In this document: positions 2,853-43,598 of the stretch, one piece after another
How the letters are laid out: each line of letters opens with the position of its first letter
How positions within the stretch are numbered: the stretch's first letter is position 1
Assembly (NCBI GenBank): GCA_020161575.1
Contig: JAIUNR010000006.1
Location: 62,001 to 126,000 of the forward strand
Direction: 5' to 3'
Source of the DNA: Pseudomonadota bacterium
GTDB taxonomy: Bacteria; Pseudomonadota; Alphaproteobacteria; Rhizobiales; Beijerinckiaceae
Length of the DNA stretch: 64,000 nucleotides
Notes under the pieces: model-generated
The model's database searches: none
Told to the model about the DNA's origin: nothing
The model's input: only the letters and a program-made list of their open reading frames with translations
Position numbers and translations under genes: made by a program

Positions 2853-3704
2853 ATGTCCGACAAAGATAAAGCCAAAGGCAAGCGCGACTTCGCGGTGCGG
2901 CTCAAGACCGCGCGCAAGCGCACCACCAGCCAGCAGGCCTGGCTGCGCCGCCAGCTCAACGACCCTTACGTCGCCAAGGCGAAGGAGGCGGGATACCGCA
3001 GCCGCGCGGCGTTCAAGCTCGTTGAAATCGATGACAAATACCACCTTCTCAAGCCGGGTATGCGGATCGTCGATCTTGGCGCGGCACCGGGTGGATGGTG
3101 CCAGGTCGCCGCGGAGCGGATCGGGATCACCGATGCGGGCGGAAAAGTGGGCGCCGGTTTTCCGCGCAAAGCATCGGAAGAGGGGGATGCGGGCGGAAAA
3201 GTGGGCGCCGGTTTTCCGCGCAAAGCATCGGAAGAGGGGGATGCGGGCGGAAAAGCGGTTGCCGGTTTTGCGCAGAATGCATCGGCGAAGATCGTTGCGA
3301 TCGACCTTCTCGAGATCGATCCGCTGCCGGGTGTCGATTTCATGGTGATGGATTTCACGCTTCCCGAGGCCGACGACATCCTGAAGGAGAAGCTCGGCGG
3401 GCTCGCCGATGGCGTGATCTCCGACATGGCTGCGAACACGACGGGGCACAAGAAGACCGATCACCTCAAGATCGTGGGTCTTGCCGAAATGGCGCTGGCC
3501 TTCGCGCGCGAGGTGCTGGCGCCGGGCGGGTTCTTCCTGTGCAAGCTCTTCCAGGGCGGCGAGACGGGCGAACTCGTTACCGATCTCAAACGCGATTTTA
3601 CAATTGTGCGCCACGTGAAGCCGGCTTCAAGCCGCGCCGATTCCTCGGAGCTATACGTGCTCGCGACCGGGTTTCGCGGAAGCCGGGAGGATGTTCAGAC
3701 TTGA
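2853..3704 (+). CDS. rlmE: 23S rRNA 2'-O-methyltransferase RlmE with repeat-encoded insert
   Basis: An FtsJ/RrmJ-family enzyme that methylates the 2'-OH of U2552 of 23S rRNA in the large-subunit A-loop. It shows the SAM motif VDLGAAPGGWCQVA (near residue 75) and the catalytic-type segments DFMVMDFT, DGVISDMAANTTGH and FFLCKLFQGGE. The protein has 283 residues, about 48 more than usual. The excess is an in-frame insert between the motif-I helix (ERIGITDAGGK) and the next strand (IVAIDLLEIDP). It consists of GAGFPRKASEEGDAGGK-type repeats encoded by a tandem palindromic DNA element. All conserved motifs remain, so the enzyme is probably functional. Its stop overlaps the TTG start of the next gene. 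Confidence 0.9.
   Translation: MSDKDKAKGKRDFAVRLKTARKRTTSQQAWLRRQLNDPYVAKAKEAGYRSRAAFKLVEIDDKYHLLKPGMRIVDLGAAPGGWCQVAAERIGITDAGGKVGAGFPRKASEEGDAGGKVGAGFPRKASEEGDAGGKAVAGFAQNASAKIVAIDLLEIDPLPGVDFMVMDFTLPEADDILKEKLGGLADGVISDMAANTTGHKKTDHLKIVGLAEMALAFAREVLAPGGFFLCKLFQGGETGELVTDLKRDFTIVRHVKPASSRADSSELYVLATGFRGSREDVQT
3132..3290 (+). repeat. tandem 54-bp palindromic repeat inside rlmE
   Basis: Two identical 54-bp units start at 3132 and 3186, and a third, diverged 51-bp copy runs from 3240 to 3290. Each unit can fold: an outer arm GATGC pairs with GCATC, and an inner arm GCGGAAAA pairs with TTTTCCGC around GTGGGCGCCGG. This resembles the GGAAAA...CCGGTTTTCC palindromes scattered between genes in rhizobia. 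Here the length is a multiple of three and the insert has no stop, so it is read as 18-residue peptide repeats within RlmE. Confidence 0.85.
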
Positions 3705-21903: not shown

Positions 21904-21918
21904 TCATTCCCACTCGAT
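21904..21918 (-). other. attachment site: guaA 3' end (IEWE-stop)
   Basis: Read on the minus strand the 15 bases are ATC GAG TGG GAA TGA, encoding IEWE and stop. This is the highly conserved C-terminus of GMP synthase GuaA, which is a known insertion target of genomic islands. The preceding codon is ATA instead of the usual Thr codon and no further guaA sequence follows, so homology ends exactly there, as expected for an att core left after insertion. The 289 bp from here to the helicase stop (22208) are AT-rich and hold no gene I can support. Confidence 0.75.
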
Positions 21919-41659: not shown

Positions 41660-41679
41660 GGTGATCATGCATGATCACC
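41660..41679. promoter_or_regulatory. perfect 20-bp palindrome across the start of the XRE gene
   Basis: GGTGATCATG is followed directly by its reverse complement CATGATCACC. It covers the end of the ribosome-binding GGGAGG and the start codon at 41671. A TATAAT -10 hexamer lies at 41617-41622 without a good -35. The symmetry and position suggest autoregulation, either as an operator or through an mRNA hairpin that hides the start. Confidence 0.6.
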
Positions 41680-41937
41680 GCCCGACAATCACGGGCCGCA
41701 CGCGCGTTGCTGGGTTGGACGCAGGAGACGCTCGCTGGCAAGGCTCGCATAGCACTGACCGCGCTCAAGCGCCTCGAATCCGCAAACGGTCTCGAGGTGT
41801 ATGAGACGACACGCGATCAGGTGCGAAGGGCTCTTGAAGCCGCTGGCATCGTCTTCCTGTCGACCGACCGAGGGCAAGGAGTGCTGTTGGTCGATGATAG
41901 CGGAAACAACCCCAATCGATCCAATCCCTCGCGCTGA
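41671..41937 (+). CDS. small XRE-type helix-turn-helix regulator (QseC-like position)
   Basis: An 88-residue regulator made almost entirely of one Cro/CI-type helix-turn-helix: QSRAARALLGWTQETLAGKARIALTALKRLESANG, then RDQVRRALEAAGIVFL. It directly precedes the stand-alone DUF2285 gene. In ICEMlSymR7A a small XRE protein, QseC, controls the DUF2285 antiactivator QseM. By gene order this one is a candidate for that role, although here the two genes run in the same direction and are not divergent. A perfect palindrome overlaps its start codon. Confidence 0.72.
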   Translation: MITARQSRAARALLGWTQETLAGKARIALTALKRLESANGLEVYETTRDQVRRALEAAGIVFLSTDRGQGVLLVDDSGNNPNRSNPSR

Positions 41938-42033
41938 CCTGCGGGCGGAAAAGCTTGCTGTCGCACGCGATCGATCCATTTCGGATCAAACTTGGTTAAT
42001 AGACAGACGTCGCCTATCCACCGAGTCTGCATC

Positions 42034-42294
42034 ATGATCGAGCCATTCGCTGACCTCGCCCCGTCCGGACAAGATCTCACCGACTATGACAGGTCGCACG
42101 TCAAGCTCTACATGCGCCTGCTGGATGCGGCCGCCGACGGCGCCCGTTGGGAGGAAGCTGTACAGGTCCTGTTCGGCCTCGATCCTGCCCGCGAACCCGA
42201 ACGCTGCCGACGCATCCACGACAGCCACCTAACACGTGCGCGCTGGATGACCCACACCGGCTATCGACACCTTCTTCGGCAGGCGCACGGCTGA
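42034..42294 (+). CDS. stand-alone DUF2285 protein (QseM-like antiactivator candidate)
   Basis: An 86-residue protein consisting of one DUF2285 extended-turn helix-turn-helix domain: YDRSHVKLYMRLLDAAADGARWEEAVQVLFGLDPAREPERCRRIHDSHLTRARWMTHTGYRHLLRQ. In ICEMlSymR7A the single-domain DUF2285 protein QseM binds the DUF6499 domain of FseA and blocks activation of excision. Here the gene lies directly upstream of an FseA-like gene, so the same role is likely. The N-terminal two thirds are acidic, as reported for QseM. ATG 42034 is chosen. A GATCC-N5-GGATC repeat lies about 55 bp upstream. Confidence 0.72.
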   Translation: MIEPFADLAPSGQDLTDYDRSHVKLYMRLLDAAADGARWEEAVQVLFGLDPAREPERCRRIHDSHLTRARWMTHTGYRHLLRQAHG

Positions 42295-42418: not shown

Positions 42419-43181
42419 ATGAGGCCCGATACATCAGACTGGCGAAACGATCACAGCTACGATTTCCTTGACGCGCTGCCGATCGAGGGCCTCGCCTGGG
42501 AATGCCTTCGCAGACACCATCTCTATCAAGACCAATACGCCAGCCTGGTCCGTACCAGCGCTGAAACCCTGCCGCTGCCTCACAAACAGCAGCAGCGTTG
42601 GGGGTTGCGATTTCCCTGCAAGGCCAGGTCTTTCCGCAACACAGCAACAGGTGACATGGTCGCCATCGAGCGATCCAGCCATCGTCCTCTTGTCAAAGCG
42701 GCCAGACTTCCTGCCGGCTGCCCCAAATACGCTCGCCGACAGATTCGCTGCGGAGCGTAACGGCCCTGAAGGGGCATATTCCGCTCTTCCCGAGCACGAG
42801 CTGCAGACACTGTTCCTTCCCGGCACGTCCCCGAGCGATCGGCTTGCGGCGGTCATCCCGATCGATGACGACATCCTCGACCGCATCGACGCGCTCTCAC
42901 GGCTCGCGCGCGCCTGGCTCGGACGTCCGCCGTTGCGCGATACGCGCATGACCGCCGATCAACGCCGTCGCTTTCGTCTGAGACTTCGTGCCGCTGACGG
43001 TCGCATGAATGGCGCCACCTATCGCGAGATCGCCATTGCGATCTATGGCGCGGCGCGCGTCGATACCGAGCCCTGGAAAACATCGCCGCTACGCGACGCC
43101 GCGATCGCCTTCGTCGAAGCCGGACTAGCGCTCATCGACGGCGGCTATCTGCACCTGCTCCGGCATCGCCGCCGCCCTTAG
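42419..43181 (+). CDS. FseA-like transfer activator (DUF6499-DUF2285) made by +1 ribosomal frameshift
   Basis: The gene is in two frames. Frame one starts at ATG 42419 (GGGAG upstream) with a DUF6499 domain: DWRNDHSYDFLDALPIEGLAWECLRRHHLYQDQYAS to WGLRF, codon 65. Read on without a shift it ends at 42760 (113 residues). Slipping +1 at TTT-C (42611-42614) continues as PARPGLSATQQQVTWSPSSDPAIVLL and through a second domain to 43181. That second domain is DUF2285: DQRRRFRLRLRAADGRMNGATYREIAIAIYG to LIDGGYLHLLRHR. The fused product has about 254 residues. In ICEMlSymR7A, FseA is produced by the same tRNA-Phe UUU-to-UUC slip and activates rdfS; here the rdfS-like gene follows directly. Confidence 0.82.
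42611..42614 (+). other. candidate programmed +1 frameshift site (UUU-C)
   Basis: Codons read cga TTT CCC tgc. Moving tRNA-Phe from UUU (42611-42613) to UUC (42612-42614) restores the frame that encodes the rest of the DUF6499-DUF2285 protein, with CCU next. The site follows the WGLR motif. It needs no other change to give a full-length protein. Confidence 0.78.
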
Positions 43182-43193
43182 CCGGCGCAACGG

Positions 43194-43234
43194 CAGGGGT
43201 GGGGATTTCAGCCACCTCAACTTCCCCATCCCTG
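43194..43234. promoter_or_regulatory. inverted repeat between the FseA-like gene and the excisionase gene
   Basis: CAGGGGTGGGGA (43194-43205) and TCCCCATCCCTG (43223-43234) are inverted repeats matching at 11 of 12 positions, separated by 17 bp. A smaller repeat CCGCT-N7-AGCGG follows near 43272-43288. The 135-bp gap is where an FseA-type activator would have to act on the rdfS promoter, so the large repeat is a candidate binding site; a terminator is the alternative. Confidence 0.5.
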
Positions 43235-43316
43235 CAGCCGACAATCCTCCGCCACCGTGGTCGTTGTCAGCCGCTGATCGCCAGCGGCCCCCAGCACCCC
43301 CACGGAGGCCCGCCCC

Positions 43317-43598
43317 ATGCGACCCGATATCGCCGCGATCCCGCCACGCTACCTGCGGACCAAGGAAGCTGCCGAGTTTCTCAGCCTGTCCGCCCGCACC
43401 CTCGAGAAGCACCGCACCTATGGAACCGGCCCCGCATACCGCAAACTCGGTGGGCGTGTCGTCTACTCGGTCGACGACCTCGAAACCTGGGCGGATCGCG
43501 GCGCCGTCACCTCGACCTCCGATCCGCGCGGCTCCGTTCTGCCTGCGAAGCGTCAGACGCTGCCGACCGGCCAGAGCGCCGGCCGATACGCACGCTGA
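43317..43598 (+). CDS. AlpA/RdfS-like excisionase (recombination directionality factor)
   Basis: A 93-residue protein with a MerR/AlpA-type winged helix-turn-helix: PRYLRTKEAAEFLSLSARTLEKHRTYGTGPAYRKLGGRVVYSVDDLETWAD (about 9-60). A basic, unstructured tail follows. Small proteins of this kind bend att DNA and switch a tyrosine recombinase towards excision (RdfS in ICEMlSymR7A). Its place right after the FseA-like activator and at the head of the repA-tra operon matches that system. GGAGG precedes the ATG. Confidence 0.78.
   Translation: MRPDIAAIPPRYLRTKEAAEFLSLSARTLEKHRTYGTGPAYRKLGGRVVYSVDDLETWADRGAVTSTSDPRGSVLPAKRQTLPTGQSAGRYAR

Follow-up and report, generated by a model that had tools for sequence, protein, structure and literature searches.

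An FseA-type activator gene with its two domains in different reading frames and a probable +1 programmed frameshift at TTT-C, in a probable guaA-adjacent integrative and conjugative element

The two domains that make up an FseA-type activator, DUF6499 and DUF2285, are found in different reading frames at 42419-43181 of the window, which is the whole 64-kb stretch of DNA analysed here. The question raised by this locus is whether the two domains are made as one protein, and by what means. An initial annotation had placed the DUF6499 frame from 42419, the slip at 42611-42614 and the end of the DUF2285 frame at 43181, and had proposed that the domains are joined only if the ribosome shifts by +1 at TTT-C. 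These coordinates are exact. The ATG at 42419 opens the 0 frame, in which a Pfam profile search finds PF20109/DUF6499 (E 5.4e-20, residues 7-66); the same type of search finds PF10074/DUF2285 in the +1 frame (E 2.5e-34). The split-frame observation is confirmed: the two domains can be joined only by a +1 shift at TTT-C.

The codons at the slip are W (42599-42601), G (GGG, 42602-42604), L (TTG, 42605-42607), R (CGA, 42608-42610) and F (TTT, 42611-42613), and the next base is C at 42614. The 0 frame ends in ...QQRWGLRF at 42613, and the +1 frame resumes with PARPG after C42614. When TTTC is taken as one step, the translation reads WGLRF-PARPG; it holds to residue 184 only, as a second in-frame TTTC farther on was also joined. 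The DUF6499 motif appears in translation as AWECLRRH, which is AWEFLRRN-like. The DUF2285 domain of fseA has a net charge of +7 as calculated from the sequence, and a sequence search with this half retrieved no PDB chain at E up to 1. The features of the locus are listed in Table 1.

Table 1. Positions of the fseA locus and associated features in the window.
Feature	Position	Strand	Basis or remark
Probable left attachment-site repeat ATTCCCACTCGAT	21906..21918		Exact copy at guaA 3' end
qseC-like small HTH regulator (putative)	41671..41937	+	Name by position and homology to relatives
QseM homologue, lone DUF2285	41992..42294	+	Listed start TTG 41992; ATG 42034 better fits QseM length
fseA first ORF, DUF6499 domain	42419..42760	+	PF20109; fused protein would use only up to 42613
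Shine-Dalgarno-like TGGGGG, codes Trp-Gly	42599..42604	+	GGG codon enrichment, anti-SD energy
+1 slip site TTT-C	42611..42614	+	TTTC in 121, TTTT in 7, of 130 splits
fseA second part, +1 frame: linker and DUF2285	42615..43181	+	PF10074; dN/dS 0.14-0.23 vs ten relatives
Candidate FseA box, inverted repeat GCAGGGGTGGGGAT - 15 nt - TTCCCCATCCCTGC	43193..43235	+	12/14 positions pair (by eye)
rdfS homologue (HTH_17), recombination directionality factor	43317..43598	+	HTH_17 E 1.6e-10; PDB 8dgl

Homologues of DUF6499 were searched in the same family (match in 38/149 genomes), the class (25/385), the phylum (43/398), the order of one distant relative (19/300) and another family (170/391). A further source supplied the best 80 of 362 confirmed loci. 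Of the matched places, only a portion was carried forward as loci. The main set contained 245 loci, including the window; 28 loci from the other family were added later and kept apart. From the main set, 28 loci were dropped (15 without a detectable C-terminal domain, 12 without WG and one without the N-terminal domain). The remaining 217 loci gave 169 distinct ones at ~95% over 180 nt after removal of 48 near-copies. These 169, with the window among them, comprise 130 clean +1 splits, 31 single-frame genes and 8 others, five of which differ by +1 while their 0 frame stays open over a long stretch, and three of which have a disrupted second half. In the first set of 115 unique loci, the frame difference between the two domains was +1 in 93, 0 in 21 and +2 in 1, and this excess of +1 indicates that the split occurs more than by chance. 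Two genomes, G088 and G082, have 10 and 7 DUF6499 matches, respectively, and either carry many FseA-bearing elements or are mixed bins. Among 29 plasmid records with a match, both domains are annotated as separate proteins in 2, DUF2285 without DUF6499 in 11, and nothing under the match in 16; most of these matches span the DUF2285 part only, and the gene table is incomplete. Split fseA genes stay hard to spot in annotation. Scans of viral contigs gave no relatives.

The tetranucleotide at the slip is strongly conserved. Among the 130 clean splits it was TTTC in 121, TTTT in 7 and different in 2; the last two have no aligned TTT, one having TTTC a codon later and the other ATTC. Of the additional 28 loci, one was dropped and 27 are split, all with TTTC (27/27, near-copies not removed). 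Ten close relatives from other genomes are all arranged +1, nine with TTTC and one (L197) with TTTT. Conservation of TTTC in relatives, raised as a check by the initial annotation, is found both in the whole set and among these close relatives. Provided that every locus slips at one shared position, the stops place the slip at about W+10 to W+21, with TTTC not presupposed: the +1 frame opens only at W+10 in three loci, and the 0 frame stops at W+21 in at least 12. This leaves no codons but those around TTT-C. In ICEMlSymR7A, msi172 and msi171 are reportedly joined by a slip of tRNA-Phe from UUU to UUC, according to a PNAS paper of 2015. It had been claimed that the slip in the window reproduces this codon change; the much higher frequency of TTTC than of TTTT is consistent with the change itself, and the slip very probably occurs in this organism too.

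Synonymous codons around the slip are also unusual. For the codon test, the first set contributed 88 split loci, and each codon was set against the synonymous codons at other positions of these genes as the baseline. Gly is GGG at 63/88 split sites (14.5% elsewhere in the same genes), Leu is TTG at 47/80 (baseline 10.2%), Arg is CGA at 47/60 (9.8%) and Phe is TTT at 86/86 (24.7%); the p-values of this test assume independent loci, which these loci are not, and the effect sizes weigh more. None of the four codons rises significantly in the 20 single-frame loci, a small sample (GGG 5/20, TTG 5/18, CGA 1/12, TTT 2/5). In the larger set of 130 splits, GGG is present at 100 and CGA at 87. The synonymous signature is therefore GGG-UUG-CGA-UUU-C, with constraint across 16 nt. 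The mean anti-Shine-Dalgarno duplex energy at W is -8.4 kcal/mol in split and -5.8 kcal/mol in single-frame loci. The spacing of this Shine-Dalgarno-like sequence is unlike that of prfB. Two other stimulators were considered and rejected. A downstream hairpin is not indicated in the 60 nt downstream of the slip against mononucleotide shuffles (n=130; mean z 0.14, 2/130 below -2, window z 0.74), a test of structures other than pseudoknots. An A-site stop codon is not the stimulator either, as the 0-frame codon after TTT is CGC in 37/88 and CCC in 34/88 loci. The ribosome binding site-like UGGGGG was already noted for FseA by Jowsey et al. (PMC10359603). In the accessible part of that paper, neither CGA nor a codon test was seen to be mentioned, and a literature search on FseA, Shine-Dalgarno and frameshift gave a review only; the PNAS paper may have it. 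The codon signature provides concrete synonymous positions for testing how the +1 slip is stimulated.

A split of this kind could come from decay or from a sequencing error, by which one extra base entered a once single-frame activator. One-base length changes do occur at the site, barring assembly error: the single-frame gene L018 and the split gene L096 are near-identical and differ by one nucleotide in length at the slip site. If both assemblies are correct, the two genes can serve as a natural test pair; an assembly error is the alternative. Disruption of the second half, seen in 3/169 loci, also speaks for decay. Against decay or error, the same +1 layout is present in the ten close relatives of other genomes, among which single-frame copies had been named in advance as the sign of decay. 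All 57 rows of the drawn clade of the window in the FastTree tree are split (support 84), and 51 of them belong to a clade with support 99. Random breakage would produce +1 and +2 differences alike, against 93 and 1 among the 115 loci, with 21 at 0. Both halves of fseA are under purifying selection. For the DUF6499 part, dN/dS against the ten close relatives spans 0.14-0.35; for the +1 part the range is 0.14-0.23, and dS is 0.24-0.79. Two of the relatives, L193 and L194, have the same values. Where the frames overlap 3' of the slip, identity to the ten relatives is 63-80% in the +1 frame and 38-64% in the 0 frame; the lower identity indicates that the 0-frame tail is not the conserved product. 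Decay or error is very unlikely as an explanation of the split.

DUF6499 and DUF2285 may instead be separate proteins that act in a complex, the second perhaps made by internal initiation near UGGGGG. This sequence does look like a ribosome binding site (PMC10359603), the +1 frame of the window has a possible TTG start at 42468, 5' of the motif, and the ICEAc study regards each half as an ORF of its own, the two functioning as a unit (PMC9601964, in its accessible part). Initiation, however, leaves the conservation of TTT-C and CGA unexplained, and single-frame fusions of both domains exist (31/169). The open +1 frame of the probable ICEAc locus has no ATG, GTG or TTG until 85 nt past W. Two separate proteins are very unlikely on these grounds. 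The slip could also be real and yet a passive leftover with no useful gating. In favour of this, single-frame homologues are common in other lineages (31/169), and in the order of the distant relative, long open frames prevail among the matches listed, with few exceptions. The strong synonymous constraint that extends across 16 nt in split genes is not readily accounted for unless the slip itself is selected, which makes a passive leftover unlikely. Selection for efficient slipping alone would still not prove gating. Programmed +1 frameshifting is the reading followed below.

The gene order in the window is qseC-like, QseM, FseA and RdfS. An rdfS-like gene had been reported to follow fseA, and 43317-43598 does match RdfS (PDB 8dgl, E 7.1e-10, residues 11-71), by which it is predicted to be a winged-HTH recombination directionality factor with a role in excision. 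An rdf-like ORF lies 3' of fseA in 65/88 split and 13/20 single-frame loci. Past rdfS, the genes are, in order, RepA, a ParA-like ORF (by reading), DUF2840 and a T4SS coupling protein. The QseM homologue (41992-42294) and the qseC-like gene upstream of it had been left out of the initial annotation. The former shows PF10074 (E 1.2e-6) and no DUF6499, and matches PDB 7uqt, "Quorum sensing master protein" (E 8.2e-21). In the 7uqt alignment it retains the equivalents of Arg28 and Asp31, with the numbering inferred by matching the residues named in PMC10359603 to the chain; these residues of QseM are needed for antiactivation and binding, according to the accessible part of the same paper. Its net charge from the sequence is only -1. 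The qseC-like ORF gives HTH_3 at E 0.0026 and 18.2 bits, under the Pfam cut-off of 23, and has a homologue at the same place in 13 of the 56 split loci for which 1 kb or more of upstream sequence was available.

An adjacent qseM is found in 107/130 split versus 1/31 single-frame loci (the single-frame case is L018), and in 19/27 of the further splits. These counts come from a QseM profile built almost wholly from split loci and thus less sensitive in distant groups. Tree pairs gave 5 supported independent comparisons of qseM and frameshift, on average 1.8 in the same direction, 0 opposite and 3.2 without difference (median p 0.5), on a FastTree tree with several long branches. The link between frameshifting and adjacent qseM is weakened: it is confounded by ancestry and fails correction with the present data. 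The 23 splits without adjacent qseM consist of a clade of 12, 8 loci in a distant group, and L022, L072 and L269. The clade of 12 splits lacking an adjacent qseM-like gene contains L003-L008, L010, L016, L017, L061, L107 and L122.

A candidate FseA box sits between fseA and rdfS, ~90 nt before the rdfS ATG. The published FseA-box logo is placed at 62-67 before rdfS (PMC10359603, accessible part). The hexamer score of the window is 5 of 6 with a spacer of 15-16. Perfect box hexamers are found in 18/130 loci (a stretch of N accounts for one) versus 9.6 in mononucleotide shuffles. With flanks, which were picked after the hexamer result and make these scores partly circular, the window scores 12 versus a maximum of 10 among 10 shuffles, and the mean of 129 loci is 10.5 versus 9.4 in shuffled sequences. 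Set-wide, the case for a conserved FseA box is weakened to a modest one, only weakly apart from shuffles.

The element had been described as an ICE integrated at guaA. guaA itself lies outside the window; the 3' end of guaA, at 95783 in extended coordinates, carries a second ATTCCCACTCGAT copy, and an integrase-like ORF (named by reading) at 94206-95468(-), also in extended coordinates, adjoins that end. The repeats taken as ends would give an element of ~73.9 kb. About 0.05 exact 13-base matches are expected in the compared stretches by rough arithmetic, so the 13-base repeat by itself is not decisive. In congeners, sequence like 2.3-6.0 kb of the window adjoins guaA in 5/11 loci; ~16 kb (6 to 21.9 kb) is therefore not accounted for, and the comparison of these 11 loci does not confirm the left end at 21906. 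Between 6000 and 21900, the window contains LysR, formate dehydrogenase and fimbrial-type ORFs, as named by reading. No tRNA was found in the 64-kb window. The element is probably a guaA-adjacent ICE, and the earlier description is fairly well supported by the repeat and the integrase-like ORF. A literature search found no paper on a guaA integrative and conjugative element in Sphingomonas. Apart from these features, a 54-base unit is repeated 2.9 times in tandem (93% match) at 3132-3285, within an rlmE-like ORF at 2853-3704 (name by reading); in frame the copies read as ~50 residues of GDAGGKVGAGFPRKASEE-type repeats.

The lack of visible quorum-sensing genes, claimed earlier for the element, was also seen in whole-genome searches for two families. 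No LuxR autoinducer-binding domain was found in the whole genome, by a search whose control was positive in 1/14. No LuxI was found in the whole genome, by a search whose control was silent and which finds LuxI in 32/60 family genomes.

The gene in the window very likely encodes an FseA-type activator whose domains are joined by a +1 programmed frameshift. The identification as FseA-type stands, with both domains found, the whole clade of the window split and TTTC prevailing at the slip; the following mechanism is proposed from these sequence features. With UUU in the P site and CGA in the E site, tRNA-Phe would re-pair one base forward onto UUC. UGGGGG (Trp-Gly) would be able to pair with the 16S anti-Shine-Dalgarno 5-6 nt upstream of the slip. 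The ribosome would continue into the DUF2285 frame, giving a fused protein of 253 aa. Fused FseA would bind the box before rdfS and activate that gene, by which the guaA ICE would be excised. The DUF6499 part of FseA is probably blocked by QseM, whose gene lies immediately upstream, and expression of qseM may in turn be adjusted by the qseC-like gene. The circuit would work without a quorum-sensing layer. As an example the window is a clear one: a transfer activator of the frameshift type, on an ICE in a host genome where no quorum-sensing families were found.

A wider proposal is tentative, and we put it at somewhat below an even chance. Frameshift and QseM could together act as a two-key lock, sufficient in itself to gate ICE transfer with no quorum sensing involved, as a default design in alphaproteobacterial ICEs including ICEAc. 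The slip would be set by an upstream cassette of an internal Shine-Dalgarno (GGGGG), UUG, a slow CGA in the E site and UUU-C, with no need for a stop or hungry codon or downstream structure, and would be distinct from that of prfB.

The frameshift idea is not new: among 4709 curated homologues of FseA, about 61% have been reported to require the +1 shift (PMC10359603, accessible part). Frameshifted FseA looks like an already known kind, of which the window is a sound new example; the interest is in the codon signature and the reading of ICEAc, not in the existence of the frameshift. The additions made here are the synonymous-codon signature, the single-frame near-identical variant and the split in the probable ICEAc locus.

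The locus is similar to FseA of ICEMlSymR7A (msi172-msi171, Mesorhizobium japonicum R7A) in the combination of DUF6499 and DUF2285, the +1 shift by WGL, the QseM antiactivator and the RdfS target, as described in the accessible part of PMC10359603. In ICEMlSymR7A, fseA belongs to traI2-msi172-msi171 under TraR quorum sensing (PMC5882170, accessible part). Unlike this arrangement, with R7A compared by description, the window has qseC-like, qseM, fseA and rdfS in a row, and LuxI and LuxR-AHL were not found. The guaA-adjacent ICEs of Mesorhizobium carry no symbiosis genes, and all those described in the accessible part of PMC8627217 carry fseA, rdfS, rlxS and trb; they are from a different host family (by grouping) and are likened to the present element at the element level. 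RovC of Yersinia, which gave its name to PF10074, has a DUF2285-type DNA-binding domain with a fold reported to be FseA-like (PMC10359603, accessible part). RovC differs from FseA in that it is not an ICE regulator.

The closest comparison for function is with ICEAc. Locus L300 (G1172:C1:4429000-4433500, 4.43 Mb) is very probably ICEAc of Azorhizobium caulinodans ORS571. It shows a +1 split at TGGGGACTTCGATTTC (TTTC) and a QseM-like ORF upstream, and the same +1 split is present in the sister species A. doebereinerae. Neither the rdfS nor the qseC-like protein of the window has a match in 4.5 kb of this locus. In the accessible part of PMC9601964, rihF1b-rihF1a/rihF2/rihR of ICEAc have the same halves, a lone DUF2285 and an XRE gene, with no traR. 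Its authors state that a frameshift is absent and that the halves are separate ORFs acting as a unit, against the +1 split in the probable ICEAc sequence. According to the same part, deletion of rihF2 (the lone DUF2285) leaves transfer unchanged and the XRE protein RihR regulates intC, not rihF1; both points are against a simple transfer of the R7A model. The same source reports that rihF1b-rihF1a is required for transfer, with a ~1000-fold drop, and that neither half alone complements, which is what a frameshift fusion predicts. The split thus offers a simple reading of the published genetics of ICEAc, in a system with transfer assays.
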